Position numbers and translations under genes: made by a program. A stretch of 64,000 bases of DNA from Chondrosia reniformis (Eukaryota > Porifera > Demospongiae > Chondrillida > Chondrillidae), in assembly GCA_947172415.1 (NCBI GenBank), contig OX359191.1:6634001-6698000 (forward strand). The letters are read 5' to 3'. Under the pieces are notes generated by a model that was not told the origin of the DNA, did no database searches, and was given only the letters and a program-made list of their open reading frames with translations. This document shows positions 23,680-64,000 of the stretch, piece by piece (within the stretch, counting starts at the first letter, position 1; every line of letters starts with the position of its first letter).

Positions 23680-24448
23680 ATTGATTACAGTACAACCAAG
23701 ATAAGTAATAGCCCCTTTGTGGGTTGACAAGGACACTTCCTTAACAATGAAAAAGCTATATAGGAATTACCAAATTTAAACCACTGGAATGCAGCTTTGT
23801 TTATACAGTCATTGTAGATATATTTGCACAAGAACTACATCAAATAATATACAGTATATATAACTATGTAAAGGTTGCAATATTAATATAATTATAATGT
23901 GCAGAATATTATACACCTGTATGTATACCTTTTTGGATCATCCCTGTATAGTGAACATACGTATATAGTTAAAGGTATATATAGGAATACTGCAGTGCTT
24001 GCAAGAGTGATTAATAATATTATTATATATAAACCATGCATAATTATATATGTAGAAGTTCATTCTGTATTTCTTAATTAAAAATGTCTGTACATATGGA
24101 ATTTGTATATATAATATCAAACTGGTAATGCCACTTTGGAAAAGGTAGCAAAACAAGACAGTCATCATGTGATAAGGCTAACCATGCAGAATTGGCATAC
24201 TGAAACATTTATATAATTACAGTAGATGATTTAACCATACATACGTATCTACGTTAATTAGGCACATCATGTTAGCTGAAGTAGGCCTAGAAGTGATTAA
24301 TTTACATTGGAGACTGACAAAATGCATGTTCATATATATATACATGCTTAATGATGGAATATACCATGCTTGGCCATGTCTTTGCTCAAGTCAATTCTCA
24401 AAAAAGGATTGAAACAAGAAAGTAATTCCTAGCTAATCATAATTCCGT

Positions 24449-32100: not shown

Positions 32101-34675
32101 TGTTTGCTAGTATTGAGTTAGTTGCTTCATGTATACTTCTGTCTTCTCCTCCATTCCTGAATTGAATACATCATTGCAATGGAACAATAGGCTGTGAGTA
32201 TCTGTTTAATGTGAATACTTTATACATAATGACAATATAAAGCACATTCTGTAGTTACTCTCTGTTTAATAGTTTGTGGGTGTGACATTGACTTTTTTTC
32301 CTGTAAATGTTTTCAAAATGTCCTGTATTGTTAATGTTTTTGTTATTATTTGTTTTTTTCCAAAAAAAGTTGTACGTATATGCTAATATATTTTAGTTAC
32401 TTCATGTATTTTGTATGTTAAATAAATACTCTTAAAATCCTTTCCTGCACCAATTTATATCATTGCAATTGAACAACAATGGTCATGTTACATATACATA
32501 CACTGTATGTACAACATAATCAAAAGTATATAGGAGCTTTTTAGTTTTCACTGCTAAAGCTAATATTTTATATCTCATTGTTACATTGTTAGTCTTACGT
32601 TTAAGTTTACGTGAAAGACTAAAGAAGGAATATTTGGATGATCTGGTGGTACCTCATTTGAGCAATGATTGGAATGAAGTTGGATCTAACCTTGATATCC
32701 AGGGACCTGTTTTAGGAAGAGTCAAACGGGAGCATCACAACATTCCAGAGAAATGTGCCAGCAACATGTTTGATGAGTGGCTGGAGCATTCTCCAGGGAC
32801 AGGAAGAAAGGAGAGAACATGGAAGACTGTACTCACTTCACTGAGAAACAGTGGAAGAGAAGACATTGTGGAAAATGTAACTGACCATTTCACATGGGAA
32901 GGAATTATAAGTAAGCAACAATATACTACGTACATATAATATATCATATCTTGTGATGTTGTTAATTGTAGTCGTAGTACACACACAGTTTGTGTATATA
33001 AATACATGATATACATACATGTTTAGAAATATCAGCTAGTGCACAAAGCCTAACATATTATTTCAAACTTAAACCTAATAGCACAATCTCCTCCCTCCAC
33101 ACATACATGCATAAGGACATTCTTATACTTAAATATAAGGGGTGATGAATGAGATGCCAAATAAAGCTGACCTGAGGAGCCTCGTGATCCAGCAGATAGC
33201 AGGAATGTGGAGGGCAGTGGGTCGGCTCTTGGGAATCAGTAGCTCCACTCTGAAATACATTGAGGAGAGAGTGAAAGGAGACACACTCCAAGCCAGTCAG
33301 TTGATGTTTGACCTGTGGCTGAGTGAGGCTGAGGGCACAGGAGACAAGAAGCGTACATGGTATACTATCATCAGAGCTCTGGTACATAGTGGCCTCTCTG
33401 GTCTAGCTGAGGATGTTGTTCATGAGTTGTGTCCTGAAACTGCACAGGACTTGAAAATGACTGCAAAGAGTTAGTGATTTGATCTTCTTATAATATGAGT
33501 GTCTCATGATAATAATAAAGCTATTGGCAGAGATCACTTTACACTGTTTTCCATCTATTCTAGTATTCGGGATCACTTCTACAAGTAGTGTCAATGATGT
33601 TGAAGTGACCATTAGCTCAGAGGAGCAGCCAATATCATGTGATACGAGAGGTAAATGAGATTAGTGCTAGCACATGTAACTGTAACTGTAATGTGTTAAT
33701 AGTTCAGATGAAAGTGAAGAAATTATTGTATTTTAGTTTTATACCGGTATGTACGTACTTGTCTTAGTTTAATATACTTGCATTACTTGTAGAATGTGTA
33801 AAGATGTTAGGTTTGTGAAATTATCCAATACAAATATATCATTTATACTTTGTGATGTTTTACAGGTAGTGAATCAGGTATTGACAGATTTTTAGAAATG
33901 TCGAAAGAACAAGACATGTTTTCTGTCAATGAGGGAGGAGATCAAGGTGAGGAAATGACTTCTAATATCTCCAATTTCTTTGCTACTTCTACCAGTGTTT
34001 CAACATTATATTATGTAATGTAAAATTTAGTCTTCAGTACTAGTATGACACCTACGGTGTACATAAGTCTGAATTCTTACAGAATGAACAATATTCTCTA
34101 TATGTGTAGTATATAATTATATACATATTATGTATCATTCATCAGACACTACCTCTTCTGGAGGTATCAAGGAATGTGGCACAGCTGTGGCACCTATTTG
34201 TGGTCGGAAGAGAGCTTGTCTGCCATCTTTTGCTGAGAAACACGTCAAAAGAACAAAAGGTTCTACCAATTTGGAGAAAACATTCTTTATACTTGTCAGA
34301 TATTATTCTTGTATACATTTAACAGGTGTTAATAGAAAGACTACAGTTTTTTTGAGGAAGAACCACCAGTTCATCAAGTCCGAGTCTGATTTTAAGAATG
34401 TTGCCACAAATCTCCTAGCTTCTGGAGTTATTACTCATTTTGAGTGTGAGCGGCTCTTACATTCCATTAGTGAACAGGCCAATCAAGAGATGTACCTGAT
34501 CCTTGAGAGGAGTCCTTCTTTGGAGAAGCTAGCTAAAGTTGCTGATGCACTTGCTACTGATTCAACTCATGACCCTCACCAAGAGTTAGTGAGGAGGATC
34601 AGGGAATTTATTGGTTGGTTGGTGAAAATTCACATTCAAATTATTATCAACAGTAATTGCTTACACACCATTTAA
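29107..34675 (+). CDS. Death-Death-CARD adaptor gene, unit 2 copy
   Basis: Exons 29107..29140, 32593..32910, 33140..33469, 33564..33650, 33866..33946, 34146..34259, 34326..34675 give an uninterrupted 437-residue product. The leader is shorter than in the other copies (MARSMNEDLLS). The first Death exon begins with a charged helix (LRLSLRERLKKEYLDDL) where unit 1 has LCERPKIDDLDDL. The second Death domain is nearly identical to unit 1 (one change to WLSEAEGTGDKKRTW). The CARD exon runs 16 codons further than in unit 1 (to NSNCLHTI), because the segment inserted in unit 1 is absent. All internal boundaries are phase 1. Intron 1 (3.45 kb) is mostly the 11-cassette array. The gene is directly downstream of the broken eIF3m copy, about 290 bp after its stop. 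Confidence 0.7.
29497..32220 (+). repeat. Eleven-cassette candidate micro-exon array (unit 2)
   Basis: Eleven tandem repeats, spacing 249-265 bp. Segment between acceptor AG and GTRAGT donor: CAA 29625..29627, TTGAAA 29883..29888, CCC 30135..30137, TTAAAT 30393..30398, CCC 30657..30659, TTAAAT 30915..30920, ATG 31179..31181, ATG 31428..31430, CCC 31677..31679, TTGAAA 31939..31944, GCT 32191..32193. All eleven keep AG and the full donor. Two sub-types alternate: AATAG followed by 3 nt, and ACAG followed by TTR plus 3 nt. Confidence 0.85.
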
Positions 34676-36444: not shown

Positions 36445-38226
36445 TCAAGCTTGCTTTAGCAGGATACTGTCTATTCTGAAGTACAGGCAGTCCTCTTGCA
36501 AATAGGACGTGCCTTCTTTAGTCTTAAGTGCTTTATTAGATATAAAATTTCCTGATCCTCTTCCGCTTTTTGCTCTATTTGCTTTTGTAACTCGGCCACT
36601 TGATTCAATAGGTGTAGCTTCACCAAAGACTATCTTATCCGTGTGGTGATTGTTGTTCTGAAGCTGGTTCAGTAAGCTGACCACAACTGTGCCTCTGAAG
36701 GGCCAATTAAGCTTGGCATCGTTCTCACCTTTCATCAAGTAAATGAACACTGAAACATGTGTTCCCTTAAATGTGCCATGTCCACCAGGAAGAATATTGA
36801 GACACATTTTATATCCTCTATAGTGTGAGTAGAATGGCTCACTATACCAGTCAGCATTTGTCATTCTCTTTTCCATGTGCTGGGTTAGCTTGATGATGTA
36901 AGGAGGTTGGTAGGTGAGTGGAACGCTAAGCCAAGGTTGTTGCAGTGTGTCACTAGCTGGCTGTATGTCAATGTTGTCAATTCTGAAGTAGAGATGATTA
37001 TTTTGCAAAAAACAGCATTTCTGCTCTTCTCTGTGGGTTAGCTCAGAATGGGGAATGAATGTTTGGTGTCCAAAACCTGATTCTCTTTCAACTTCTTGAA
37101 CACGGCCACTGATATTGGGACTTTCATCATCAAATACAATTGATTTTCTATGATGTCTTTCTGGCCAAAGTTGATTCAGCAAGCTGACCGTGATTGTTCC
37201 TCTGAAAGGCCAAATCAGATTGTCATCATTTTCCCCTCTCATCAAACAGAAGAAAACTGATACATGTGAACCTTTGCCAGCACCACATCCATTAATGTAG
37301 ACATTCATTCGGAATTTGTAGCCACCAGCATGAGAATAAAGTGGGTTGCTAAACCATTCAGCTGTACTATTCTTGAATTCATCAACATTACCTATCTTTA
37401 TTATAGTAGGAGGCAGCGGATATTGCGATGGCGTGGTAGAGAGCCATGGAGAAAGGGGCGGGGCTACGGATTGCCCAGTGAGACACATTTGAGTAAGTAT
37501 GACAGCCATCTTGTTTACACTGCTCATGCACATGTTCAGGTGACTGTCTTTCTCCTCTTTCATATGCTTATCAAGGTCTTTCCGTTTCATGACTTCTGTA
37601 CACCCAATCTGTGCATATTCACAAGCAACCACTTCCTCTTGGCAGGTTGCTAGGTGAGCCTTTATGCCACTTCGCTTAATAGATAGCCTACACCCAGCTG
37701 GACATGAGATTGGAAAGTTGCTGCACACAGTGTAATGAGAAGTTACTATTAAGTCAAATACACCTTGTTTCTTACAATGAGGGCAGTTGAATGATCGCAG
37801 TTCACACTCTTCTTCAGTGTGATATTTCACTTTTTCCATCTGTAATAGTTTGCCACACTTCAAAGGGCAGGCTGTGAGCTTAAAAGGACAATTCTTTGTA
37901 TTATGATCCTCACAGTTTCCAAGTTCTCCCTGCCCCTTGCATCCTTTCTGGCTGTTTAAACACTTGACTTTCAAATTTCTAATCTGTCTAGCAGTGCGAT
38001 TATCAGCAAAGATTTGACATTCAGACCTGCAAACTGGACAGTGATCCTTCACTTTGATGCACCCAGCACAGAACACATGACCACACGGACTAGTCTGTTG
38101 AGCCTCGTGAACTAACTCCAAACAAATGGGGCATTTGAAGTCTTCCAACACTCCTGGATCCTTCAGCAGGAAGATGTACTCCTGGTCAGCATAACAGGCC
38201 TTATATTCTTCAAACTGCTTGGACAT
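36445..38226 (-). CDS. TRAF-like RING / zinc-finger / tandem MATH protein, copy D
   Basis: 593 residues, same length as copy B and the same short MATH linker without SEASSVQ. RING ligands are complete (context LEDFKCPIC, where other copies have LEDLKCPIC). In the first zinc-finger region the usual GCKWQGELG reads GCKGQGELG, replacing a conserved tryptophan next to a zinc ligand. Both MATH domains are intact (GGYKFRMNVYINGCGAG; ends SILLKQA). 5' flank of the B/D/G class. PTGR1 copy 2 follows on the same strand. Confidence 0.9.
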   Translation of the reverse strand: MSKQFEEYKACYADQEYIFLLKDPGVLEDFKCPICLELVHEAQQTSPCGHVFCAGCIKVKDHCPVCRSECQIFADNRTARQIRNLKVKCLNSQKGCKGQGELGNCEDHNTKNCPFKLTACPLKCGKLLQMEKVKYHTEEECELRSFNCPHCKKQGVFDLIVTSHYTVCSNFPISCPAGCRLSIKRSGIKAHLATCQEEVVACEYAQIGCTEVMKRKDLDKHMKEEKDSHLNMCMSSVNKMAVILTQMCLTGQSVAPPLSPWLSTTPSQYPLPPTIIKIGNVDEFKNSTAEWFSNPLYSHAGGYKFRMNVYINGCGAGKGSHVSVFFCLMRGENDDNLIWPFRGTITVSLLNQLWPERHHRKSIVFDDESPNISGRVQEVERESGFGHQTFIPHSELTHREEQKCCFLQNNHLYFRIDNIDIQPASDTLQQPWLSVPLTYQPPYIIKLTQHMEKRMTNADWYSEPFYSHYRGYKMCLNILPGGHGTFKGTHVSVFIYLMKGENDAKLNWPFRGTVVVSLLNQLQNNNHHTDKIVFGEATPIESSGRVTKANRAKSGRGSGNFISNKALKTKEGTSYLQEDCLYFRIDSILLKQA

Positions 38227-38729
38227 AGTGATTACCGTAAAACTAAAAGATAAAATATAGTCCCTTTGTAACCTTTTGAAAAAAGGGCGTTTTTGTTATT
38301 ACTGGCAGGATCGTGCCACTTGTATATACATAATGAAAGTTAATGACATTCATACACTCTATGAATATAATTATGAATTCCAAGAACAAAACATGGCTTT
38401 CTGTCAATGAGAGAGGTAATCAAGGTGAGGTATGACTTCATTAATTTGCTACTTCTACCAATGTTTCAACATTAAAACTATATAGTAAAATTTAGTCTTC
38501 AGCACCTACATATGTATGTACGTACAGTAGGTGTACATAAGTCTAATTCTTGTGAAAAAATCTATAATCACAACATAAGTATACACTAAAACAGTGTACT
38601 GTATGCATGTCAGCTTTTACATTTATACATTCCTTTATACTTTCATATAAACAAAATGCTATTTCTTTATAAATTCATTTACATTCCTAATTTAGTTTCA
38701 GTTGACTCGACAGTTTGCTACGTATGTAT
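38227..38729. other. Intergenic between TRAF D and PTGR1 copy 2
   Basis: Counterpart of 17660..18156. No coding sequence was seen. Confidence 0.6.
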
Positions 38730-42391: not shown

Positions 42392-44215
42392 TCACCAATC
42401 TTGCTTTAGAAGGATACTGTCTATTCTGAAGTAGAGGCAATTCTCTTGCAAATAGGATGTGCCTTCTTCAGCCTTATGTGCATTATTAGATATGAAATTT
42501 CCTGATCCTCTCCCATTTTCTGCTCTATTTGCTTTTGTAACTCGGCCACTTGATTCAATAGGTGTAACTTCACTAAAGACTATCTTCTGTGTGTGGTGGT
42601 TGTCATTCTGAAGCTGGTTCAGTAAGCTGACCACAACTGTGCCTCTGAAGGGCCAATTAAGCTTGGCATCGTTCTCACCTTTCATCAAGTAAATGTACAC
42701 CGAAACATGTGTTCCCTTAAATGTGCCATGTCCACCAGGAAGAATATTGAGACACATTTTATATCCTCTATAGTGTGAGTAGAATGGCTCACTATACCAG
42801 TCAGCATTTGTCATTCTCTTTTCCATGTGCTGAGTTAGCTTGATGATGTAAGGAGGTTGGTAGGTGAGTGGAACGCTAAGCCAAGGTCGCTGCAGTGTGT
42901 CCTGCACTGAGCTGGCTTCACTGGTGGTCCAATTACGGAAATCTCCTGGCTGTATGTCAATGTTGTCAATTCTGAAGTAGAGATGATTATTTTGCAAAAA
43001 ACAGCATTTCTGCTCTTCTCTGTGGGTTAGTTCAGAATGGGAAATGAATGTTTGGTGTCCAAAACCTGATTCTCTTTCAACTTCTTGAACACGGCCACTG
43101 ATATTGGGATTTTCATCATCAAAGACAATTGATTTTCTATGATGTCTTTCTGGCCAAAGTTGATTCAGCAAGCTGACTGTGATTGTTCCTCTGAAAGGCC
43201 AAGTCAGATTGTCATCATTTTCCCCTCTCATCAAACAGAAGAAAACTGATAAATGTGAACCATCACCAGCACCATTTCCATTTATGTAGACATTCATTCG
43301 GAATTTGTATCCCCCAGCATGAGAATAAAGTGGGTTGCTAAACCATTCAGCTTTACTCTTCTTCAATTCATCAACATTATCTATCTTTATTATAGTAGGA
43401 GGCAGCGGATATTGCGATGGCGTGGTAGAGAGCCATGGAGTAAGGGGCAGGGCTACTGATTGCCCAGTGAGACACATTTGAGTAAGTATGACAGCCATCT
43501 TGTTTACACTGCTCATGCACATGTTCAGGTGACTGTCTTTATCCTCTTTCATATGCTTCGTAAGGCCTTTCCGTTTCATGACTGTTGTACACCCAATCTG
43601 TGCATACTCACAAGCAACCAATTCCTCCTGGCAGGTTGCTAGGTGAGCTTTTATGCCACTTCGCTTAATAGATAGCCTACACCCAGCTGGACATGAGATT
43701 GGAAAGTTGCTGCACACAGTGTAATGAGAAGATACTATTAAGTCAAATACACCTTGTTTCTTACAATGAGGGCAGTTAAATGATCGCAGTTTACACTCTT
43801 CTTCAGTGTGCTTTTTCACTTTTTGCTTCTGTAATAGTTTGCCACACTTCAAAGGGCAGGCTGTGGTCTGAAAAGGACATTTCTTTGTCTTATGATCCTC
43901 ACAATTTCCAAGTTCTCCCTGCCACTTGCATCCTCTCTGGCTGTTTAAACACTTGACTTTCAAATTTCTAATCTGTCTAGCAGTGCGATTATCAGCAAAG
44001 ATTTGACATTCAGACCTGCAAACTGGACAGTGATCCTTCACTTTGATGCACCCAGCACAGAACACATGACCACACGGACTAGTCTGTTGAGCCTCGTGAA
44101 CTAATTCCAAACAAATGGGGCATTTGAGGTCTTCCAACACTCCTGGATCCTTCAGCAGGAAAATATACTCCTGGTCAGTATAACAGGCCTTATATTCTTC
44201 AAACTGCTTGGACAT
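42392..44215 (-). CDS. TRAF-like RING / zinc-finger / tandem MATH protein, copy E
   Basis: 607 residues from MSKQFEE (an in-frame ATG 19 codons upstream, 44270..44272, as in C and F). RING and finger ligands are intact. Unlike every other copy, the linker after MATH1 has about seven extra residues: the sequence reads IQPGDFRNWTTSEASS where others read IQPASEASS, from a 21-nt insertion near 42926-42946. Finger region contains KKHTEEECKLRSFNC. Ends SILLKQDW. Closest to copy F in the N-terminal half. Confidence 0.9.
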   Translation of the reverse strand: MSKQFEEYKACYTDQEYIFLLKDPGVLEDLKCPICLELVHEAQQTSPCGHVFCAGCIKVKDHCPVCRSECQIFADNRTARQIRNLKVKCLNSQRGCKWQGELGNCEDHKTKKCPFQTTACPLKCGKLLQKQKVKKHTEEECKLRSFNCPHCKKQGVFDLIVSSHYTVCSNFPISCPAGCRLSIKRSGIKAHLATCQEELVACEYAQIGCTTVMKRKGLTKHMKEDKDSHLNMCMSSVNKMAVILTQMCLTGQSVALPLTPWLSTTPSQYPLPPTIIKIDNVDELKKSKAEWFSNPLYSHAGGYKFRMNVYINGNGAGDGSHLSVFFCLMRGENDDNLTWPFRGTITVSLLNQLWPERHHRKSIVFDDENPNISGRVQEVERESGFGHQTFISHSELTHREEQKCCFLQNNHLYFRIDNIDIQPGDFRNWTTSEASSVQDTLQRPWLSVPLTYQPPYIIKLTQHMEKRMTNADWYSEPFYSHYRGYKMCLNILPGGHGTFKGTHVSVYIYLMKGENDAKLNWPFRGTVVVSLLNQLQNDNHHTQKIVFSEVTPIESSGRVTKANRAENGRGSGNFISNNAHKAEEGTSYLQENCLYFRIDSILLKQDW

Positions 44216-44272
44216 ATTGATTACAGTACAACCAAGATAAGTAATAGCCCCTTTGTGGGTTATCAAGGACAC

Positions 44273-44890
44273 TTCCTTAACAATGAAAAAGCTATATAGG
44301 AATTACAAAATCTAAACCACTGGAATGCAGCTTTGTTTATACAGTCATTGTAGATATATATATTTGCACAAGAACTGCATCAAATAATATACAGTATATA
44401 TAACTATGTAAAGGTTGCAATATTAATATAATTATAATGTGCAGATAATATTATACACCTGTATGTATACCTTTTTGGATCATCCCTGTATAGTGAACAT
44501 ACGTATATAGTTAAGAGTATATATTCTAGTTGCACCTAATGAAGTTATGTCCATACATATATACACTGTACATCATATTGTGGTAGATAATTATTAGAGT
44601 GTCAGAATTACTTATTGAATGGGTTTGAACGTTTTGACCCTTCATCAGGTCTTCATCAGCAATCACCAAAATAATTATCAATGCCAATAATCACAACAGC
44701 TATCCCTTATCGTTACACATACTCAATATTGAACGGACAAAACTGACTGATAAAGTCCTCCTATTAGCATGTATCTCACAACTACACTACAATTCCTACA
44801 CTAGTTACTACACTAGTAAACTACAATAGTTTAAGGTATGTAGGCCTCTCAAATGCCACAAACCACAATATAAACTTTCGTCTGGTGAGG
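44273..44890. other. Intergenic, hammerhead-like remnant
   Basis: The first part matches 23737-23980. Near 44605-44665 the minus strand reads CTGATGA-A-GACC-loop-GGTC-AAAACG, a hammerhead-like core in which the GAAA box has become AAAA. No gene was seen. Confidence 0.45.
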
Positions 44891-45680: not shown

Positions 45681-45769
45681 TGCAAATGATCACACATGAA
45701 CACACAAAAACAACACAAAACCACAGACACATACATACATACGTAAATGTATAAATACAGAGGAGTACA

Positions 45770-46175
45770 CATATGTTAGTATAGGGTAGATAGAGAGTGG
45801 ATACAGAGTACACATACGTATGTTAGTATGGGGTAGATAGAGAGTAGATATAGGGTACACATATGTAAGTATGGGGTAGATAGAGAGTAGATATAGGGTA
45901 CACATATGTAAGTATGGGGTAGATAGAGAGTAGATATAGGGTACACATATGTAAGTATGGGGTAGATAGAGAGTACGTAGATATAGGGTACACATATGTA
46001 AGTATGGGGTAGATAGAGAGTACGTAGATATAGGGTACACATATGTAAGTATGGGGTAGATAGAGAGTAGATATAGGGTACACATATGTAAGTATGGGGT
46101 AGTAGAGAGTAGATATAGGGTACACATATGTAAGTATGGGGTAGATAGAGAGTAGATATAGGGTACACATATGTT
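45770..46175. repeat. 43-bp minisatellite, about nine copies
   Basis: Tandem units of GTAGATATAGGGTACACATA plus TGTAAGTATGGGGTAGATAGAGA, period 43 bp, with two units expanded by ACGT. All three reverse frames are open only because of the repeat composition. Found only here in the window. Confidence 0.9.
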
Positions 46176-46839: not shown

Positions 46840-48633
46840 TCAATCTTGCTTTAGCAGGATACTGTCTATTCTGAAGTAGAGGCAGTCCTCTTGCAAATAG
46901 GATGTGCCTTCTTCAGCCTTAAGTGCATTGTTAGATATAAAATTTCCTGATCCTCTTCCGCTTTCTGCTCTATTTGTTTTTGTAACTCGGCCACTTGATT
47001 CAATAGGTGTAGCCTTACTAAAGACTATCTTCTGTGTGTGGTGATTGTCATTCTGAAGCTGGTTCAGTAAGCTGACCACAACTGTGCCTCTGAAGGGCCA
47101 ATTAAGCTTGGCATCGTTCTCACCTTTCATCAAGGAAATGTACAACGAAACATGTGTTCCCTTAAATGTGCCATGTCCACCAGGAAGAATATTGAGACAC
47201 ATTTTGTATCCTCTATAGTGTGAGTAGAATGGCTCACTATACCAGTCAGCATTTGCCATTCTCTTTTCCATGTGCTGGGTTAGCTTGATGATGTAAGGAG
47301 GTTGATAGGTGAGTGGAACGCTAAGCCAAGGTCGCTGCAGTGTGTCCTGCACTGAGCTGGCTTCACTGGCTGGCTGTATGTCAATGTTGTCAATTCTGAA
47401 GTAGAGATGATTATTTTGCAAAAAACAGCATTTCTGCTCTTCTCTGTGGGTTAGCTCAGAATGGGGAATGAATTTTTGGTGTCCAAGACCTGACTTTCGT
47501 TTAACTTCTTGAACACGGCTACAGATGTTTTCATCATCAAATACAATTAATTTTCTATAATGTCTTTCTGACCCAAGTTGATTCAGCAAGCTGACCATGA
47601 TTGTTCCTCTGAAAGGCCAAGTCAGATTGTCATCATTTTCCCCTCTCATTAAACAGAAGAAAACTGATACATGTGAATCTTTGCCAGCACCATATCCATT
47701 TATGTAGACATTCATTCGGAACTTGTAGCCCCCAGTATGAGAATAAAGTGGGTTGCTATACCAATTGACTTTACGTTTCTTGAATTCATCAACATTATCT
47801 ATCTTTATTATAGTAGGAGGCAGCGGATATTGCGATGGCGTGGTAGAGAGCCATGGAGTAAGGGGCAGGGCTACTGATTGCCCAGTGAGACACATTTGAG
47901 TAAGTATGACAGCCATCTTGTTTACACTGCTCATGCACATGTTCAGGTGACTGTCTTTATCCTCTTTCATATGCTTATCAAGGTCTTTCCGTTTCATGAC
48001 TGTTGTACACCCAATCTGTGCATACTCACAAGCAACCAATTCCTCCTGGCAGGTTGTTAGGTGAGCCTTTATGCCACTTCGCTTAATAGATAGCCTACAC
48101 CCAGCTGGACATGAGATTGGAAAGTTGCTGCACACAGTGTAATGAGAAGTTACTATTAAGTCAAATACACCTTGTTTCTTACAATGAGGGCAGTTGAATG
48201 ATCGCAGTTCACACTCTTCTTCAGTGTGATATTTCACTTTTTGTTTCTGTAATAGTTTGCCACACTTCAAAGGGCAAGCTGTGGTCTGAAAAGGACATTT
48301 CTTTGTCTTATGATCCTCACAATTTCCAAGTTCTCCCTGCCACTTGCATCCTTTCTGGCTGTTTAAACACTTGACTTTCAAATTTCTAATCTGTCTAGCA
48401 GTGCGATTATCAGCAAAGATTTGACATTCAGACCTGCAAACTGGACAGTGATCCTTCACTTTGATGCACCCAGCACAGAACACATGACCACACGGACTAG
48501 TCTGTTGAGCCTCGTGAACTAACTCCAAACAAATGGGGCATTTGAGGTCTTCCAACACTCCTGGATCCTTCAGCAGGAAAATATACTCCTGGTCAGTATA
48601 ACAGGCCTTATATTCTTCAAACTGCTTGGACAT
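46840..48633 (-). CDS. TRAF-like RING / zinc-finger / tandem MATH protein, copy F
   Basis: 597 residues from MSKQFEE (in-frame upstream ATG at 48688..48690). All domains are present. MATH1 is the most diverged of the family: NQLGSERHYRKLIVFDDENI replaces the usual NQLWPERHHRK and a PNISG stretch is shortened, and the following strand reads EVKRKSG. MATH2 has SLYISLMKGEND. Its left flank joins a PTGR1 remnant and a TRAF 3' stub, so it arose by unequal exchange within unit 3. Confidence 0.9.
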   Translation of the reverse strand: MSKQFEEYKACYTDQEYIFLLKDPGVLEDLKCPICLELVHEAQQTSPCGHVFCAGCIKVKDHCPVCRSECQIFADNRTARQIRNLKVKCLNSQKGCKWQGELGNCEDHKTKKCPFQTTACPLKCGKLLQKQKVKYHTEEECELRSFNCPHCKKQGVFDLIVTSHYTVCSNFPISCPAGCRLSIKRSGIKAHLTTCQEELVACEYAQIGCTTVMKRKDLDKHMKEDKDSHLNMCMSSVNKMAVILTQMCLTGQSVALPLTPWLSTTPSQYPLPPTIIKIDNVDEFKKRKVNWYSNPLYSHTGGYKFRMNVYINGYGAGKDSHVSVFFCLMRGENDDNLTWPFRGTIMVSLLNQLGSERHYRKLIVFDDENICSRVQEVKRKSGLGHQKFIPHSELTHREEQKCCFLQNNHLYFRIDNIDIQPASEASSVQDTLQRPWLSVPLTYQPPYIIKLTQHMEKRMANADWYSEPFYSHYRGYKMCLNILPGGHGTFKGTHVSLYISLMKGENDAKLNWPFRGTVVVSLLNQLQNDNHHTQKIVFSKATPIESSGRVTKTNRAESGRGSGNFISNNALKAEEGTSYLQEDCLYFRIDSILLKQD

Positions 48634-48690
48634 ATTGATTACAGTACAACCAAGATAAGTAATAGCCCCTTTGTGGGTTATCAAGGACAC

Positions 48691-50240
48691 TTCCTTAACA
48701 ATGAAAAAGCTATATAGGTATTACAAAATCTAAACCACTGGAATGCAGCTTTGTTTATACAGTCATTGTAGATATATTTGCACAAGAACTGCATCAAATA
48801 ATATACAGTATATATAACTATGTAAAGGTTGCAATATTAATATAATTATAATGTGCAGATAATATTATACACCTGTATGTATACCTTTTTGGATCATCCC
48901 TGTATAGTGAACATACGTATATAGTTAAAGGTATATATAGGAATACTGCAGTGCTTGCAAGAGTGATTAATAATATAAACCATGCATAATTATATACGTA
49001 TGTAGAAGTTCATTCTGTATTTCTAAATTAAAAATGTCTGTACATGTGGAATTTGTATATATAATATCAAACTGGTAACTGGTAAAAGGATTGAAACTAG
49101 AAAGTAATTCCTAGCTAATCATAATTCAGTACAGTGTAACCCGGATAATCCGCCAAACTGCCTAATCTGCCTGAGTTTGTATAGAACGAATTCATTTGCA
49201 TACTAGAAGTATCTATGTAATCCGCCAACCGCCGAATCCTCCATCCGCCATTATTTTCTCGCCTCAATTGCACATTTAAAGGTGTTTTCCACCTAATTAT
49301 TTGGTATTTTATTGATATTATAAATAAAGTTGAGAAAATGGCATATATTACATATAAAGTAAGAGAGACATACGTACAATAATATTCTTTTAATAATAAA
49401 AAGTATTTGTATTAAAGCATGCATATAATTACGTAGAAGTGAATATAAAGTCATTGATGGAAATTCGAGGGAGCTCCATTTCCAAATGAAAATGTCTGTG
49501 GAACTTGTACAATATCAAACTGGTAACCGCCACTTTCAGAGATATGTTTTGACTCTGATGCAACAACAAACAACATGAGAAATGATAAATAATCAGTACT
49601 AGTGAGAGCAGACTGGAATGCCATACAAGTATGTAGCAACATTGAGCCCAGAAGAGGAAGGTTTGGTCTGAAAGAAATATCTACTAGGAATTTTAGAAAA
49701 TGAATTAAGGATTAATAAACAATTACCAAGTGTACTAAAACTCTCAAATACATATTGTGGTAGATAATTATTTGAGTGTCTGCAACACCTACCTAATGAA
49801 GATTAGGTCTTCATCAGCAATCACCAAAATAATTATCAACGCCAATGATCATAACAGGTATCCCTTATCATTACATATACACAATATTGAATGGATAAAA
49901 CTGACTGATAAAGTCCTCCTATTAGCATGTATCTCACATGCAACTATACACTACAATTCCTACACTAATAGAATAAGGATTTCTTCTAACTGCATGCGTC
50001 GAACTTATCTTTGTAAAGGTTCATCTTTCGACTTTGGGAGCTTCTAGAGATGCAGTTTTTTCGATTCTTCTTTCTGCCAAACGTTTCGACCCTGGGGGTC
50101 TTCTTCAAGGGCGTCTCTAGTCGAAAGATGAACCTTTACAAAGATAATTCCTACACTAGTTACTACACTAGTAAACTACAATAGTTTAAGGTACGTAAGC
50201 CTCTCAAATGCCACAAACCACAATTATAAACTTTCGTCTG
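48691..50240. other. Repeat-rich intergenic region (unit 3)
   Basis: Counterpart of 23737-25590, with an internal deletion near 49080. Contains the pogo-like end (about 49131), a hammerhead-like remnant (49790-49815) and a foldback element. No gene was seen. Confidence 0.6.
50006..50144. mobile_element. Foldback element (unit 3 copy)
   Basis: Same element as 25366..25501. The outer ~25 nt of the arms (TTATCTTTGTAAAGGTTCAT and complement) remain paired; the inner part of the right arm is altered. Confidence 0.6.
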
Positions 50241-53751: not shown

Positions 53752-53794
53752 ACATGACATCACGGTACTTCCCCCGGGACTTCACCTCTTAACA
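53752..53794 (+). promoter_or_regulatory. Conserved block upstream of the Death-domain gene start (unit 3)
   Basis: Same block as at 8008 and 29065, directly before the ATG. Confidence 0.35.
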
Positions 53795-56700
53795 ATGGCG
53801 AGAAGCATGAATGAAGACCCATATGACCTTCTTTCAGGTGAGAGAACGAATGAATGTAACTAATACTTAGTCAGATCAGTTGTTTTCAACAAAAAGAGTT
53901 TACCATCAAATATAGAACCAGTGTTGATACACCTCGTTTACAGTACATTTCGTTTCAATAGACAAGCTAAACCATAGCTATATAGTGTTGAGGTTATAAG
54001 GAGATCTTGGTAGGAAACTCGAATAAGTTCGACATTACTTTTGCGAACTTTTACTAATGACGTACTGACTAAATTATACTTCCAATATACTATCCCACAT
54101 CTATGAAAATAATGAAAGGTACGCTAACCAGATATCTAAGTGAATTGACGATCTAACACATTTCCAACCTTAAGGCTTTGAAGTAGGTGCTAAAATGTGT
54201 TTTGATTGCAATATGTTGTTATAATTGAATGAATGTTTGCTAGTATTGATTTAGTTGCTTCATGTATACTTCTGTCTTCTCTTCCATTCCTAAATTGAAT
54301 ACATCATTGCAATGGAACAATAGCAAGTGAGTATCTGTTTAATGTGAATCCTTTATAATGACAATATAAAGCACATTGTATAGTTATTGAGTACCTACGT
54401 ATATAGCAACATGTAATTTGTGAATGTGTCTTTGAGATGTTCACTTTATTAATGAATATGTTTTGATTGTAAGATGTTGTCGTAATTGAATGAATGTTTG
54501 CTAGTATTGATTAAGTTGCTTCATGTATACTTCTGTCTTCTCCTCCATTCCTGAATTGAATACATCATTGCAATGGAACAGTTAAATGTGAGTGTCTGTT
54601 TAATGTAAATTCTTTATAGTGACATTATAAAGCACATTGTATAGTTATTGAGTACCTACGTATATAGCAACATGTAATTTGTGAATGTATCTCTGAGATG
54701 TTCACTTTATTAATGAATATGTTTTGATTGCAAAATGTTGTCAAAATTGAATGAATGTTTGCTAGTATTGATTTAGTTGCTTTATGTATACTTCTGTCTT
54801 CTCCTCCATTCCTGAATTGAATACATCATTGCAATGGAACAATAGGTGGTGAGTATCTGTTTCATGTGAATTATAGTGAAGCACATTGTGTAGTAATTGA
54901 CTGCCTACGTATATAGCAACATGTAATTTGTGAATGTATCTCTGAGATGTTCATTTTACTAATGAATATGTTTTGATTGCAAGATGTTGTCATAATTGAA
55001 TGAATGTTTGCTAGTATTGAGTTAGTTGCTTCATGTATACTTCTGCATGTCTTCTCCTCCATTCCTGAATTGAATACATCATTGCAATGGAACAATAGTC
55101 AGTGAGTATCTGTTTAATGTGAATCCTTTATAATGACAATATAAAGCACATTGTATAGTTATTGAGTACCTACGTATATAGCAACATGTAATTTGTAAAT
55201 ATGTCTCTGAGATGTTCACTTTATTAATGAATATGTTTTGATTGCAAGATGTTGTCGTAATTGAATGAATGTTTGCTAGTATTGAGTTAATTGCTTCATG
55301 TATACTTCTGTCTTCTCCTCCATTCCTGAATTGAATACATCATTGCAATGGAACAATAGACTGTGAGTATCTGTTTAATGTGAATCCTTTATAATGACAA
55401 TATAAAGCACATTGTATAGTTATTGAGTACCTACGTATATAGCAACATGTAATTTGTAAATATGTCTCTGAGATGTTCACTTTATTAATGAAAGTGTTTT
55501 GATTGCAATATGTTGCTAGTATTGATTTAGTTGCTTCATGTATACTTCTGTCTTCTCCTCCATTCCTGAATTGAATACATCATTGCAATGGAACAATAGC
55601 CCGTAAGTGTCTGTTTAATGTGAATCCTTAATAGTGACAAAATGAAGCACATTGTGTAATAATTGAGTACCTACGTATATAGCAACATGTAATTTGTGAA
55701 TATATCTCTGAGATGTTCACTTTATTAATGAATATGTTTTGATTGCAAAATGTTGTCGTAATTGAATGAATGTTTGCTAGTATTGATTTAGTTGCTTCAT
55801 GTATACTTCTGTCTTCTCCTCCATTCCTGAATTGAATACATCATTGCAATGGAACAGTTAAATGTGAGTGTCAGTTTAATGTAAATTCTTTATAGTGACA
55901 TTATAAAGCACATTGTATAGTAATTGACTACCTACGTATATAGCAACATTTAATTTGTGAATGTATCTCTGAGATGTTCACTTTATTAATGAGTATGTTT
56001 TGATTGCAAAATGTTGTCATAATTGAATGAATGTTTGCTAGTATTGAGTTAGTTGCTTTATGTATACTTCTGTCTTCTCCTCTGTTCCTGAATTGAATAC
56101 ATCATTGCAATGGAACAATAGACTGTGAGTGTCTGTTTAATGTGAATTATAGTGAAGCACATTGTGTAATAATTGACTGCCTTCGTATATAGCAACATGT
56201 AATTTGTGAATGTATCTCTGAGATGTTCATTTTACTAATGAATATGTTTTGATTGCAAGATGTTGTCATAATTGAATGAGTGTTTGCTAGTATTGAGTTA
56301 GTTGCTTCATGTATACTTCTGTCTTCTCCTCCATTCCTGAATTGAATACATCATTGCAATGGAACAATAGATGGTGAGTATCTGTTTAATGTGAATTATA
56401 GTGAAGCACATTGTGTAGTAATTGACTGCCTACGTATATAGCAACATGTAATTTGTGAATGTATCTCTGAGATGTTCATTTTACTAATGAATATGTTTTG
56501 ATTGCAAGATGTTGTCATAATTGAATGAGTGTTTGCTAGTATTGAGTTAGTTGCTTCATGTATACTTCTGTCTTCTCCTCCATTCCTGAATTGAATACAT
56601 CATTGCAATGGAACAATAGCAAGTGAGTATCTGTTTAATGTGAATCCTTTATAGTGACATTATAAAGCACATTGTATAGTAATTGAGTACCTACGTATAT

Positions 56701-59595
56701 AGCAACATGTAATTTGTGAATGTATCTCTGAGATGTTCACTTTATTAATGAATATGTTTTGATTGCAAAATGTTGTCATAATTGAATGAATGTTTGCTAG
56801 TATTGAGTTAGTTGCTTTATGTATACTTCTGTCTTCTCCTCCATTCCTGAATTGAATATATACATCATTGCAATGGAATAGTTGAAAGTGAGTGTCTGTT
56901 TAATGTGAATTATAGTGAAGCACATTGTGTAATAATTGACTGCCTACGTATATAGCAACATGTAATTTGTGAATGTATCTCTGAGATGTTCATTTTACTA
57001 ATGAATATGTTTTGATTGCAAGATGTTGTCATAATTGAATGAGTGTTTGCTAGTATTGAGTTAGTTGCTTCATGTATACTTCTGTCTTCTCCTCCATTCC
57101 TGAATTGAATACATCATTGCCATGGAACAATAAACCGTGAGTGTCTGTTTAATGTGAATACTTTATACATAATGACAATATAAAGCACATTCTGTAGTTA
57201 CTCTCTGTTTAATAGTTTGTGGGTGTGACATTGACTTTTTTTCCTGTAAATGTTTTCAAAATGTCCTGTATTGTTAATGTTTTTGTTATTATTCGTTTTT
57301 TCCCAAAAGAGTTGTACGTATATGCTAATATATTTTATTTACTTCATGTATTTTGTATGTTAAATAAATACTCTTAAAATATCATTGCAATTGAACAACA
57401 ATGGTCATGTTACATATACATGTATATGTACAACATAATCAAAAGTATATGGAGCTTTTTATTACTTTTCATTGCTAAAGTGTAAGCTAATATTTTATAT
57501 CTCATTGTTAGTCTTACGTGAAAGACTACGTGAAAGAGCAAAGAAGGAATATTTGGATGATCTGGTGGTACCTCATTTGAGCAATGATTGGAATGAAGTT
57601 GGAGCTAACCTTGATATCCAGGGACCTGTTTTAGGAAGAGTCAAACGGGAGCATCACAACATTCCAGAGAAATGTGCTAGCAGCATGTTTGATGAGTGGC
57701 TGGAGCATTCTCCAGGGACAGGAAGAAAGGAGAGAACATGGAAGACTGTACTCACTTCACTGAGAGACAGTGGAAGAGAAGACATTGTGGAAAATGTAAC
57801 TGACCATTTCACATGGGAAGGAATTATAAGTAAGCAACAATATACTACGTACATATAATATATCATATCTTGTGACGTTGTTAATTGTAGTCGTAGTACA
57901 CACACACAGTTTGTGTATATAAATACATGATATACATACATGTTTAGAAATATCAACTAGTGCACAAAGCCTAACATATTATTTCAAACTTAAACCTAAT
58001 AGCACAATCTCCTCCCTCCACACAGATAAGGACATTCTTATACTTAAATATAAGGGGTGATGAATGAGATGCCAAATAAAGCTGACCTGAGGAGCCTCGT
58101 GATCCAGCAGATAGCAGGAATGTGGAGGGCAGTGGGTCGGCTCTTGGGAATCAGTAGCTCCACTCTGAAATACATTGAGGAGAGAGTGAAAGGAGACACA
58201 CTCCAAGCCAGTCAGTTGATGTTTGACCTGTGGCTGAATGGGGCTGAGGGCACGGGAGACGAGAAGCGTACATGGTCTACTATCATCAGAGCTCTGGTAC
58301 AAAGTGGCCTCTCTGGTCTAGCTGAGGAGGTTGTTCATGAGTTGTGCCCTGAAACTGCACAGGACTTGAAAATGACTGTAATGAGTTAGTGATTTGATCT
58401 TTTTATAATATGAGTGTCTCATGATAATAATAAAGCTATTGGCAGAGATCACTTTACACTGTTTTTCATCCATCCTAGTATTCGGGATCACTTCTACAAG
58501 TAGTGTCAATGATGTTGAAGTGACCATTAGCTCAGAGGAGCAGCCAATATCATGTAGTATGAGAGGTAAATGAGATTAGTGCTAGCACATGTAACTGTAA
58601 TGTGTTAATAGTTCAGATGAAAGTGAAGAAATTATTGTATTTTAGTTTTATATCGGTATGTACGTACTTGTCTTAGTTTAATATACTTGCATTACTTGTA
58701 GAATGTGTAAAGATGTTAGGTTTGTGAAATTATCCAATACAAATATATCATTTATACTTTGTGATGTTTTACAGGTAGTGAATCAGGTATTGACAGATTT
58801 TTAGAAATGTCGAAAGAACAAGACATGTTTTCTGTCGATGAGGGAGGAGATCAAGGTGAGGAAATGACTTCTAATATCTCCAATTTCTTTGCTACTTCTA
58901 CCAGTGTTTCAACATTATATTATGTAATGTAAAATTTAGTCTTCAGTACTAGTATGACACCTACGGTGTACCTAAGTCTGAATTCTTACAGAATGAACAA
59001 TATTCTCTATATGGGTAGTATATAATTATATACATATTATGTATCATTCATCAGACACTACCTCTTCTGGAGGTAACAAGGAATGTGGCACAGCTGTGGC
59101 ACCTATTTGTGGTCGGAAGAGAGCTTGTCTGCCATCTTTTGCTGAGAAACACGTCAAAAGAACAAAAGGTTCTACCAATTTGGAGAAAACATTTTTTATA
59201 CTTGTCAGATACTATTCTTGTATACGTACATACGTACATTAACAGGTACTAATAGGAAGACTATAGTCTTTTTGAGGAAAAACCAGCAGTTCATCAAGTC
59301 CGAGTGTGACTTCAGGAACATTGCCACAAATCTCCTTGCTTCTGGAGTTATTACTCATTTTGAGTGTGAGCGGCTCTTACATTCAATTAGTGAACAGGCC
59401 AATCAAGAGATGTACCTGATCCTTGAGAGGAGTCCTTCTTTGGAGAAGTTAGCTAAAGTTGCTGACGCACTTGCTACTGATGAAACTCATGACCCTCACC
59501 AAGAGTTAGTGAGGAGGATCAGGGAATTTATTGGTTGGTTGGTGAAAATTCACATTCAAATTATTATCAACAGTAATTGTTTACACACCATTTGA
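53795..59595 (+). CDS. Death-Death-CARD adaptor gene, unit 3 copy
   Basis: Exons 53795..53837, 57512..57829, 58055..58384, 58479..58565, 58775..58855, 59055..59168, 59246..59595 give 440 residues without a break. Leader MARSMNEDPYDLLS is the longest of the three. The first Death exon starts with a duplicated charged motif (LRERLRERAKKEYLDDL). Death 2 has LVQSGLSGLAEEVVHELCPE. Exon 4 differs by SCSMRG in place of SCDTRG. The CARD exon is followed by a second, nearly identical CARD exon (59673..60019). Intron 1 is 3.7 kb and carries 12 cassettes. All three copies stay open although the neighbouring eIF3m is broken in every unit, which suggests selection on this gene. Confidence 0.7.
54198..57150 (+). 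repeat. Twelve-cassette candidate micro-exon array (unit 3)
   Basis: Twelve repeats, spacing 240-265 bp. Segments: CAA 54324..54326, TTAAAT 54582..54587, GTG 54846..54848, TCA 55099..55101, ACT 55360..55362, CCC 55600..55602, TTAAAT 55858..55863, ACT 56122..56124, ATG 56371..56373, CAA 56620..56622, TTGAAA 56882..56887, ACC 57134..57136. All have GTRAGT. In the last cassette the acceptor AG has become AA, so it is probably inactive. Confidence 0.85.
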
Positions 59596-61756: not shown

Positions 61757-63559
61757 TCAATCTTGCTTTAGCAGGATACTGTCTATTCTGAAGTAGAGGC
61801 AGTCCTCTTGTAAATAGGATGTGCCTTCTTTAGTCTTAATAAGTGCTTTATTAGATATAAAATTTCCTGGTCCTCTTCCGCTTTTTGCTCTATTTGTTTT
61901 TGTAACTTGCCCACTTGATTCAATAGGTGTAGCTTTATTAAAGACTATCTTATATGTGTGGTGGTTGTCGTTCTGAAGCTGGTTCAGTAAGCTGACTATA
62001 ACTATGCCTCTAAAGGGCCACTTTAGTTTGGCATCATTCTCACCTTTCATCAAGTAAATGAACACTGAAACATGTGTTCCCTTAAATGTGCCATGTCCAC
62101 CGGGAAGAATATTGAGACACATTTTGTATCCTCTATAGTGTGAGTAGAAAGGCTCACTATACCAGTCAGCATTTGCCATTCTCTTTTCCATGTGCTGGGT
62201 TAGCTTGATGATGTATGGGGGTTGGTAGGTGAGTGGAACGCTAAGCCAAGGTCGCTGCAGTGTGTCCTGCACTGAGCTGGCTTCACTGGTTGGCTGTATG
62301 TCAATGTTGTCAATTCTGAAGTAGAGATGATTATTTTGCAAAAAACAGCATTTCTGCTCTTCTCTGTGGGTTAGTTCAGAATGGGGAATGAATTTTTGGT
62401 GTCCAAGACCTGAGTCTCTTTCAACTTCTTGAACACGGCCACTGATATTGGGATTTTCATCATCAAATACAATTGCTTTTCTATGATGTCTTTCTGGCCA
62501 AAGTTGATTCAGCAAGCTGACCGTGATTGTTCCTCTGAAAGGCCAAGTCAGATTGTCATCATTTTCCCCTCTCATCAAACAGAAGAAAACTGATAGATGT
62601 GAACCTTTGCCAGCACCACATCCATTTATGTAGACATTCATGCGGAACTTGTACCCCCCAGCATGAGAATAAAGTGGGTTGCTAAACCATTCAGCTGTAC
62701 TATTCTTGAATTCATCAACATTACCTATCTTTATTATAGTAGGAGGCAGCGGATATTGCGATGGCGTGGTAGAGAGCCATGGAGTGAGGGGCGGGGCTAC
62801 GGATTGCCCAGTGAGACACATTTGAGTAAGTATGACAGCCATCTTGTTTACACTGCTCATGCACGTGTTCAGGTGGCTGTCTTTATCCTCTTTCATATGC
62901 TTATCAAGGTCTTTCCGTTTCATGACTGTTGTACACCCAATCTGGGCATATTCACAAGCAACCAATTCCTCCTGGCAGGTTGCTAGGTGAGCTTTTATGC
63001 CACTTCGCTTAATAGATAGCCTACACCCAGCTGGACATGAGATTGGAAAGTGGCTGCACACAGTGTAATGAGAAGTTACTATTAAGTCAAATACACCTTG
63101 TTTCTTACAATGAGGGCAGTTGAATGATCGCAGTTCACACTCTTCTTCAGTGTGATATTTCACTTTTTCCATCTGTAATAGTTTGCCACACTTCAAAGGG
63201 CAGGCTGTGGTCTGAAAAGGACATTTCTTTGTCTTATGATCCTCACAATTTCCAAGTTCTCCCTGCCACTTGCATCCTTTCTGGTTGTTTAAACACTTGA
63301 CATTCAAATTTCTAATCTGTCTAGCAGTGCGATTATCAGCAAAGATTTGACATTCAGACCTGCAAACTGGACAGTGATCCTTCACTTTGATGCACTCAGC
63401 ACAGAATACATGACCACATGGACTAGTCTGTTGAGCCTCATGAACTAACTCTAAACAAATGGGGCATTTGAGGTCTTCCAACACTCCTGGATCCTTCAGC
63501 AGGAAGATATACTCCTGGTCAGCATAACAGGCCTTATATTCTTCAAACTGCTTGGACAT
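61757..63559 (-). CDS. TRAF-like RING / zinc-finger / tandem MATH protein, copy G
   Basis: 600 residues with complete RING, TRAF fingers and both MATH domains, and the SEASSVQ linker. It is the intact sister of the broken copy A: both have the same total length and the same ALIK(T/A)KEGTS segment in MATH2. Small differences: RING loop reads CAECIKVKDHCPVC (others CAGC) and NNQKGCKWQG precedes the first finger. 5' flank is of the B/D class, with a possible TTTAG acceptor 20 nt upstream of the ATG. Confidence 0.9.
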   Translation of the reverse strand: MSKQFEEYKACYADQEYIFLLKDPGVLEDLKCPICLELVHEAQQTSPCGHVFCAECIKVKDHCPVCRSECQIFADNRTARQIRNLNVKCLNNQKGCKWQGELGNCEDHKTKKCPFQTTACPLKCGKLLQMEKVKYHTEEECELRSFNCPHCKKQGVFDLIVTSHYTVCSHFPISCPAGCRLSIKRSGIKAHLATCQEELVACEYAQIGCTTVMKRKDLDKHMKEDKDSHLNTCMSSVNKMAVILTQMCLTGQSVAPPLTPWLSTTPSQYPLPPTIIKIGNVDEFKNSTAEWFSNPLYSHAGGYKFRMNVYINGCGAGKGSHLSVFFCLMRGENDDNLTWPFRGTITVSLLNQLWPERHHRKAIVFDDENPNISGRVQEVERDSGLGHQKFIPHSELTHREEQKCCFLQNNHLYFRIDNIDIQPTSEASSVQDTLQRPWLSVPLTYQPPYIIKLTQHMEKRMANADWYSEPFYSHYRGYKMCLNILPGGHGTFKGTHVSVFIYLMKGENDAKLKWPFRGIVIVSLLNQLQNDNHHTYKIVFNKATPIESSGQVTKTNRAKSGRGPGNFISNKALIKTKEGTSYLQEDCLYFRIDSILLKQD

Positions 63560-64000
63560 AGTGATTACCGTAAAACTAAAAGATATAAGTAATATAGTCC
63601 CTTTGTAACCTTTTGAAAAAAAAGGGCGTTTTGTTATTACTGGCAGGATCGTGACACTTGTATATAGTGAAAATTAATGACATTCATACACTCTATGAAT
63701 ATAATTATGAATTCCAAGAACAAAACATGGCTTTCTGTTAATGAGAGAGGTAATCAAGGTGAGGTATGACTTCATTAATTTGCTACTTCTACCAATGTTT
63801 CAACATTAAAACTATATAGTAAAATTTAGTCTTCAGCACCTACATATGTATGTACGTACAGTAGGTGTACATAAGTCTAATTCTTGTGAAAAAATCTATA
63901 ATCACAACATCTACAAATCTAGATCCTTTATAATCACAACATAAGCATACACTAAAACAGTACACTGTATGTATGTCAGCTTTTACATTTATACATTCCT
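63560..64000. other. Start of unit 4 right flank
   Basis: Matches 17660-18060 and 38227-38640. The window ends just before the position where the last exon of another PTGR1 copy would be expected on the minus strand. Confidence 0.6.

Follow-up and report, generated by a model that had tools for sequence, protein, structure and literature searches.

The stretch of DNA analysed here (the window, 64,000 nucleotides (nt), positions 6,634,001-6,698,000) belongs to C3, one of three contigs of the Chondrosia reniformis genome that are named C1, C3 and C12 below, and contains three plus-strand genes with two Death domains each, in the first intron of which lies a tandem array of candidate micro-exons of only 3 or 6 nt. 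The assembly of this sponge (odChoReni1.1) was described as 117.37 Mb in 14 chromosomes plus the mitochondrion, with RNA-seq run ERR10177766 originating from the same specimen (PMC12181767). Our whole-genome pattern searches covered 117,379,552 bases in 15 contigs.

All five Death-Death genes of C3, including the three of the window, have a short leader exon, an array in intron 1, a first Death exon and a second Death exon, the last of which closes with a stop codon in every case (by eye). The leader exons measure 40, 40, 34, 43 and 37 nt by hand count, so that each is 1 mod 3; all end in G, in phase 1, and the first Death exon completes the phase-1 codon. The exons in the window are:

8051-8090 (+), leader exon of gene 1 (40 nt, phase-1 end, G/gtgag)
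10202-10507 (+), exon 2 of gene 1, first Death domain (starts TG)
10737-11071 (+), exon 3 of gene 1, second Death domain, terminal stop
29107-29140 (+), leader exon of gene 2 (34 nt, phase 1)
32593-32910 (+), exon 2 of gene 2, first Death domain
33140-33474 (+), exon 3 of gene 2, second Death domain, terminal stop
53795-53837 (+), leader exon of gene 3 (43 nt, phase 1)
57512-57829 (+), exon 2 of gene 3, first Death domain (starts TC, completes the phase-1 codon)
58055-58389 (+), exon 3 of gene 3, second Death domain, terminal stop

Against a Pfam cut-off of 22.6 bits for Death, exons 2 and 3 of gene 3 scored above (24.8 and 27.0 bits, respectively) and exon 2 of gene 1 slightly below (20.5 bits). 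The initial annotation had named these genes Death-Death-CARD. The two Death domains are borne out by Pfam, and the CARD is not: no Pfam family was found at E<=0.1 in three downstream open reading frames (ORFs) of the window, and one of these three had no meaningful sequence match in the PDB. The leader peptide, MARSMNEDPYDLLS, is non-hydrophobic and leads into the Death domains (judged by eye, without a signal-peptide program).

Within the three paralogous first introns we identified 29 units of about 250 base pairs (bp), each built of a pyrimidine tract, an AG, 3 or 6 nt and a GTRAGT. The limits given by Tandem Repeats Finder (TRF) were 8608-9853, 29495-32232 and 54194-57198, the first unit of array 1 beginning slightly before its TRF limit. 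Combining TRF with a unit-by-unit parse gave the following arrays and micro-exons:

8437-9853 (+), array 1, intron 1 of gene 1, 6 units
8563-8565 (+), micro-exon 1.1, TCC
8821-8826 (+), micro-exon 1.2, TTGAAC
9070-9075 (+), micro-exon 1.3, TTGAAT
9322-9324 (+), micro-exon 1.4, GTT
9576-9581 (+), micro-exon 1.5, TTAAAC
9828-9830 (+), micro-exon 1.6, GGT
29495-32232 (+), array 2, intron 1 of gene 2, 11 units
29625-29627 (+), micro-exon 2.1, CAA
29883-29888 (+), micro-exon 2.2, TTGAAA
30135-30137 (+), micro-exon 2.3, CCC
30393-30398 (+), micro-exon 2.4, TTAAAT
30657-30659 (+), micro-exon 2.5, CCC
30915-30920 (+), micro-exon 2.6, TTAAAT
31179-31181 (+), micro-exon 2.7, ATG
31428-31430 (+), micro-exon 2.8, ATG
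31677-31679 (+), micro-exon 2.9, CCC
31939-31944 (+), micro-exon 2.10, TTGAAA
32191-32193 (+), micro-exon 2.11, GCT
54194-57198 (+), array 3, intron 1 of gene 3, 12 units
54324-54326 (+), micro-exon 3.1, CAA
54582-54587 (+), micro-exon 3.2, TTAAAT
54846-54848 (+), micro-exon 3.3, GTG
55099-55101 (+), micro-exon 3.4, TCA
55360-55362 (+), micro-exon 3.5, ACT
55600-55602 (+), micro-exon 3.6, CCC
55858-55863 (+), micro-exon 3.7, TTAAAT
56122-56124 (+), micro-exon 3.8, ACT
56371-56373 (+), micro-exon 3.9, ATG
56620-56622 (+), micro-exon 3.10, CAA
56882-56887 (+), micro-exon 3.11, TTGAAA
57134-57136 (+), unit 3.12, ACC, donor intact, acceptor AG lost (ATAA)

All 29 units have a GTGAGT or GTAAGT donor and 28 have the acceptor AG, the exception being the last unit of array 3 (57134), which reads ATAA and is probably not spliced in. 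Fourteen different triplets precede the donor. The total of 29 units (here 6 + 11 + 12), the two splice-site counts and the number of triplets are exactly those of the initial annotation, and its description of a repeat that is nearly constant apart from the triplet was confirmed as well: mean pairwise diversity is 0.687 in the three triplet columns versus 0.081 in 241 others, none of which exceeds 0.542 (columns needed at least 20 letters to be included), which puts the pattern far from chance. Only in the three triplet columns are all four bases seen among the 29 aligned units.

The arrays are not confined to the three introns in which they were originally described. Using a window unit as query, we found two more arrays on C3 and stretches of 70-74% similarity on C1 and C12, and in all we met four diverged families with a common anatomy, namely those of C3, of C1, of C12:1.81 Mb and of a cluster at C12:4.86-5.11 Mb (the C12 cluster). 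The C12:1.81 Mb array was found independently, since the locus was picked for its Death exon: that exon, at C12:1.815 Mb, is with 42% identity the closest relative of the window's outside C3, and again an array of 3- or 6-nt exons precedes the Death exons and includes TTGAAC, common to C3. In the C12 cluster the period is 218 bp, the neighbouring coiled-coil exons are in phase 0, and one copy carries a Death domain (Pfam, 30.2 bits). Death domains thus occur in genes or clusters hosting three of the four families; for the C1 host gene, three ORFs gave no significant Pfam family. The C1 exons are mostly 6 nt long (ACAG/NNNNNN/GTGAGT), with 3 nt in three units (ATAG/GAA), and in the first three pieces of the C12 cluster 84 of 84 anchor matches with a donor have 3 nt (ten more matches without a GTRAG donor comprise one weakened donor and nine that were judged chance).

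A census of units, recognised without requiring AG or GT, yielded 290 in-array units: 90 on C3, 29 on C1, 23 in the sampled part of C12:1.81 Mb and 148 in a first set from the C12 cluster. Both AG and GT are retained in 286 of them, and 284 read AG-N3/N6-GTRAG (283 by program; C1 unit 1606987, which would have 9 nt from its first AG, was parsed by hand as ...ATAG/GAA). The other six have a lesion or a weak donor (C3 6623676, 6624459 and 6691114; C12 1813731, 4885174 and 4941141). Intact units number 6, 11, 11, 29 and 30 in the C3 arrays and C12 runs reach 64 listed units, all with 3 or 6 nt. The census removed anchor matches with fewer than 17 pyrimidines in the 30 positions upstream (93 of 425), and other exon lengths among the rejected rows were limited to four 5-nt matches outside arrays and one 9-nt match within exon 2. 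A later C12 sample, for which forecasts were fixed beforehand and in which a pyrimidine limit of 19 removed 3 of 57 anchor matches, contained 54 units, of which 52 were intact, all 52 with 3 nt and without a single stop; of the other two, one has a weak donor and one is split by an insertion.

Genome-wide, the C12 core pattern GATTAACAG-N3-GTRAGTATCTG (at most one mismatch) was found 380 times, always on the same strand and never on the other. No genome-wide match was obtained with the reversed pattern as a control or with N2, N4 or N6 in place of N3 (N0 was not among the variants searched). The 100 of the 380 places that were listed all fall at C12 4.86-4.94 Mb, and the 83 of these outside the sampled stretches have no stop and none ending in AG (by eye). 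As a check for contamination, one C3 core pattern was searched in prokaryote contigs, with no match.

Several other features of the arrays were observed. A perfect 10-bp palindrome, CATTGCAATG (e.g. window 56349-56358), lies a little 5' of the acceptor in most units of the C3, C1 and C12:1.81 Mb families. Tandem acceptors of the NAGNAG type (ACAGAAG, CAGAAG), which would offer one-codon choices, are found in the C1 arrays (in L036-L039) and in one C3 array (C3:6625848, 6630285 and 6630546). Insertions resembling mobile elements, with ends of the CCCTTTAT type at TTAA, interrupt C12 units (L041:8560-9404 and L049 near C12:4978242). The element CCTTCAATATG/GTAGGAGT recurs 5' of three C12 arrays (L046:2700-3360, L042:4360-4390 and L048:9290-9320) and is a possible leader exon with the start codon at its end, in which case these arrays begin directly after Met. 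Downstream of the C1 array host exons there is an ORF with a P-loop-like motif (GPPGTGKT; L037:8400-8780).

We next compared the triplets with the reading phase of the host genes. In C3, joining leader and first Death exon without a micro-exon gives G/TC or G/TG, i.e. valine, while a 3-nt exon XYZ would give G-X-Y and Z-T-C (or Z-T-G), in which a stop is impossible; the earlier proposal that one or two residues are added between the leader and the first Death domain fits phase 1 in 5 of 5 C3 genes. The C1 intron is likewise in phase 1, as its upstream exon is open only when leaving one base (G) and its downstream exon only when taking two first, and the candidate leader of C12:1.81 Mb is also compatible with phase 1 (by eye). 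The coil exons beside the big C12 arrays read in phase 0 (exon limits by eye), and there the triplet is one codon. When the micro-exons were concatenated in host phase, we found one stop in 357 codons, while the two other frames, of 341 codons each, had 8 and 43 stops (host phase first: 0, 4 and 8 for C12:1.81 Mb, which by itself sets host phase apart from frame +1, and 1, 4 and 12 for the C12 cluster, which does so in part). The share of E/K/Q/R/L/A/I was 71% in host phase versus 49% and 32%. Examples of such host-phase strings are GQRLIERLERRQRLSQLDFERRRRLELLELERLIERLS (C12:1.81 Mb, first residue uncertain), DQFLKELNREEREKKEKFQQKAKEK (C12:5.088 Mb) and AIETLKSLKYDALESF (window gene 2). The leader base of C12:1.81 Mb was taken as G in this reading, where A is suggested, and exon 2 of gene 1 starts with TG and not TC; each changes one codon.

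A further finding was that change is concentrated in the exon bases. On a tree of the flanks, the last three exon bases of C3 accumulated 21, 17 and 29 changes compared with an average of 1.02 across 160 columns of the intron (maximum 7), and those of the C12 cluster 67, 56 and 47 versus 2.26 for 172 columns (maximum 11), giving exon/intron ratios of 22 and 25 for the two families run. Among pairs of units with less than 2% flank divergence, the exon differs in 64% of 183 pairs in C3, 65% of 31 in C1, 71% of 21 in C12:1.81 Mb and 87% of 1469 in the C12 cluster. Genes 2 and 3 have intron 5' flanks that are 99.7% identical and different codon strings. Outside the units, divergence of intron 1 among C3 loci ranges from 0.3% to roughly a quarter on the 5' side and is higher on the 3' side for one locus; introns are therefore not generally frozen here. 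Either the codons are driven to change, or the introns are homogenised with selection protecting the codon differences. The 22-25-fold excess is a sign either that selection on these immune-type Death-domain genes is strong or that introns evolve in concert around protected codons; the arrays make both possibilities measurable.

The splice signals, whose function is judged here from conservation, are on the other hand retained. Four AG/GT lesions were observed versus 39.5 expected from the intron mismatch rate, and mismatch in the 60 nt 5' of the acceptor is 0.011-0.024 versus 0.037-0.066 further off, about three to six times more conserved in three families and more weakly so in C1 (0.024 versus 0.038). 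In addition, codons of the NAA type (CAA, AAA, GAA) outnumber those of the NAG type (CAG, AAG, GAG) by 58:1 in C12 micro-exons and by 22:0 in the later C12 sample, versus 416:358 in the window's seven TRAF-like ORFs and 44:24 in five coil exons of the hosts. A NAG codon places a second AG against the donor; its avoidance makes sense if that AG were taken as the acceptor and the codon lost.

We infer, from these sequence patterns and with a probability of roughly 60%, that the arrays are coding exons of one or two codons in tandem-duplicated intron units, likely to be joined serially into a linker preceding the Death domains. Tandem duplication would have multiplied the intron units, nearly all with their own pyrimidine tract, AG and GTRAGT, and the introns between units would probably be removed stepwise from the 5' side. 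Once the leader has been joined at the AG of a micro-exon, this exon would abut its own GTRAGT, which would serve as the next donor, leaving one or two codons behind. Two splice sites 3 nt apart are not easily bound simultaneously, which makes stepwise removal from the 5' side the natural route. The spacing of the units (about 215-265 nt) is of usual intron size, and the end distances in the window arrays are about 370-490 nt, or 624 nt in array 3 when its dead last unit is passed over. Serial inclusion would account for 286 of 290 units having both splice sites and involves no skipping over introns of 1.5-9 kb. The codons read serially in host phase would form a linker that is mostly rich in E/K/Q/R/L/A/I and helix-like, following the leader and preceding the first Death domain in C3, with its length set by the length of the array and its surface altered by single-codon changes. 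The splicing-in of the micro-exons, their serial inclusion and a helical role of the linker are each put forward on this basis as predictions.

A number of observations weigh against this reading. Exons of 3 nt are difficult for spliceosomes. In C3 and C1 the arrays have no stop in frame +1 either, C12 has one unit with an in-frame TAA, and the array at C3:6.623-6.631 Mb reads DDHHHLSGKAIITVISSSSISSSSFSKAKATVTV, which is Ser/His/Val-rich and non-helical. The share of E/K/Q/R/L/A/I in the later C12 sample was 65% versus a forecast of 75-80%. Shuffling the order of units (13 arrays, 1000 shuffles each) caused no significant loss of helical amphipathicity (P 0.11-0.80); unit order thus carries no detectable signal, which leaves serial reading as the more probable mode and alternative inclusion as a less probable one. 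The lack of off-length exons among the 380 core matches is weak evidence, with only 1.3 indels expected; beyond the tandem runs there are six degenerate copies of the anchor (C3 6644092, 6666460, 6691382 and 6717591; C1 1666055; C12 1814199) with no AG-GT pair, and counting them lowers the figure to 286 of 296; and the units are related by duplication, so that nominal P values overstate their independence. A protein homology search returned two proteins; these match the Death exon only and speak neither for nor against inserted codons.

The initial annotation had seen the units as cassettes that diversify an immune-type adaptor combinatorially. Its coding micro-exon part is well supported by the four families, the reading phase, the 22-25-fold excess, the avoidance of AG in C12 and the retained sites; as to the combinatorial part, the data fit serial inclusion at least equally well. 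That the micro-exons are included singly or in varied combinations, yielding many Death-domain adaptor isoforms, is possible but rather unlikely in our view. Every combination would stay in frame, as all 284 intact units have 3 or 6 nt, a single inserted C3 exon never creates a stop at its boundaries, and the codons vary widely and are replaced quickly, as seen in genes 2 and 3, which differ in them despite almost identical intron flanks. The tandem acceptors in C1 and one C3 array, and the shuffles, which showed no order dependence, agree with this as well. Omission of most units, however, requires introns far above the unit spacing, and dispensable units are expected to lose their splice sites more often than in 4 of 290 cases. 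The mutually exclusive exons of the Dscam type encode parts of Ig domains, and the sponge arrays resemble them in that tandemly duplicated exons diversify within a common architecture; they differ in that each exon stands for one or two residues and in that a search of the six flanks of the window arrays gave no convincing docking element: the longest stretches complementary to a unit had 7-12 nt, P was 0.03 for a single flank of the six, and the flanks had no element in common. Yet more doubtful is a somatic form of this diversity, in which hundreds of one-codon exons would be variably combined to give each cell or individual its own linker by splicing alone, the codon set being renewed between individuals by array turnover and strong diversifying selection (e.g. 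for self-recognition or pathogen escape).

The initial annotation had also offered a non-coding alternative, in which the units are recursive splice sites or decoys that aid the removal of a long intron; the 3 or 6 nt would then be filler free of constraint. An AG soon followed by GTRAGT does resemble a ratchet point. At the zero-nt ratchet points of Drosophila, however, AG abuts GT and the intron is removed in steps, whereas here 3 or 6 nt separate the two. Filler should evolve at the rate of the intron and not 22-25 times faster, and it should not avoid stops in host phase or NAG codons. Its length, moreover, differs by 3 nt only, while 41 of 180 gaps in the C12 cluster deviate from 218 by a number not divisible by 3 (the rarity of exon indels keeps this from being a strong test). 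As it explains neither the codon content nor the variability restricted to the exon, we consider this alternative improbable. More improbable still is that the arrays are a satellite, or another repeat without exons, that resembles splice sites by accident: they are indeed tandem repeats with higher-order copies, but they lie on the strand of the host gene, in the old C12 paralogue, too, an array stands ahead of the first Death exon, AG and GT are retained and the 60 nt 5' of the acceptor are conserved. A local mutation hot spot in ordinary introns, producing diversity without selection, would fit an excess of change limited to three or six bases and is hardly credible, as it would ignore the reading phase of the host (phase 1 or phase 0 by family) and would not spare the directly adjacent AG and GT.

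Compared with known systems, the predicted coding arrays share individual traits with several. The MEG genes of Schistosoma mansoni are described as having exons of 6-81 bp (3-81 in the abstract), mostly of 15 bp, with 10-20 per gene, and as encoding secreted proteins for which rapid protein change and alternative splicing have been reported (PMC10526429). As in that description, very short, mostly frame-neutral exons stand in rows separated by long introns; the sponge exons differ in being 3-6 nt long, in numbering up to dozens in an array of almost identical tandem units and in belonging to Death-domain genes, with (by eye) a C3 leader that is not hydrophobic, unlike the secreted MEG products. 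Micro-exon 8 of Drosophila homothorax has 3 bp and results from alternative donor use within a 48-bp exon, and troponin T and NCAM are mentioned as also having 3-bp exons (PMC7392893). The likeness is that of exactly one codon per exon, spliced in the known cases and predicted in the sponge; the known cases given there are single and isolated whereas the sponge exons are arrayed. With recursive splicing and RS-exons (PMC6224609) the arrays have in common an acceptor directly followed by a donor and possible stepwise removal of the intron. Those systems leave nothing or a skipped exon, whereas the sponge steps would leave one or two variable, phase-matched codons. The bicycle genes of aphids, according to PMC9168663, are likewise fast-evolving and recognised by an odd gene structure, in a different protein class and a different animal. 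Our literature search, whose coverage did not extend to most subscription journals, yielded no account of one-codon exons in arrays.

If spliced as proposed, the arrays would constitute the finest-grained exon structure known to us: each exon would contribute one or two codons, an array would extend over about 1.4 to more than 10 kb, and one genome would hold hundreds of such exons. They would put the spliceosome to the test on rows of 3-nt exons and provide natural reporters of stepwise splicing, and they would mean that a protein region evolves by duplication of 250-bp intron units combined with single-codon change. Routine annotation may miss such arrays because aligners struggle to place exons of 3 nt.

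Immediately 5' of the leader exon lies a motif of about 30 bp, CATCACGGTACTTCCCCCGGGACTTCACCT (window 53758-53787; L051:1794-1823), which is almost identical in the 42%-identical C12 paralogue and is possibly a promoter or 5' untranslated region element. No known RNA family reached its gathering threshold within the window. The plus-strand Death-Death genes are interspersed with seven mutually similar, long TRAF-like ORFs on the minus strand, giving the locus the appearance of a repeated immune-type cluster:

3043-4386 (-), TRAF-like ORF
15878-17728 (-), TRAF-like ORF
21877-23766 (-), TRAF-like ORF
36445-38295 (-), TRAF-like ORF
42392-44302 (-), TRAF-like ORF
46840-48720 (-), TRAF-like ORF
61757-63673 (-), TRAF-like ORF

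For the last of these, the one of the seven on which Pfam was run, RING, zf-TRAF and MATH were identified. A minisatellite of about nine copies of 43 bp occupies positions 45765-46174 of the window.

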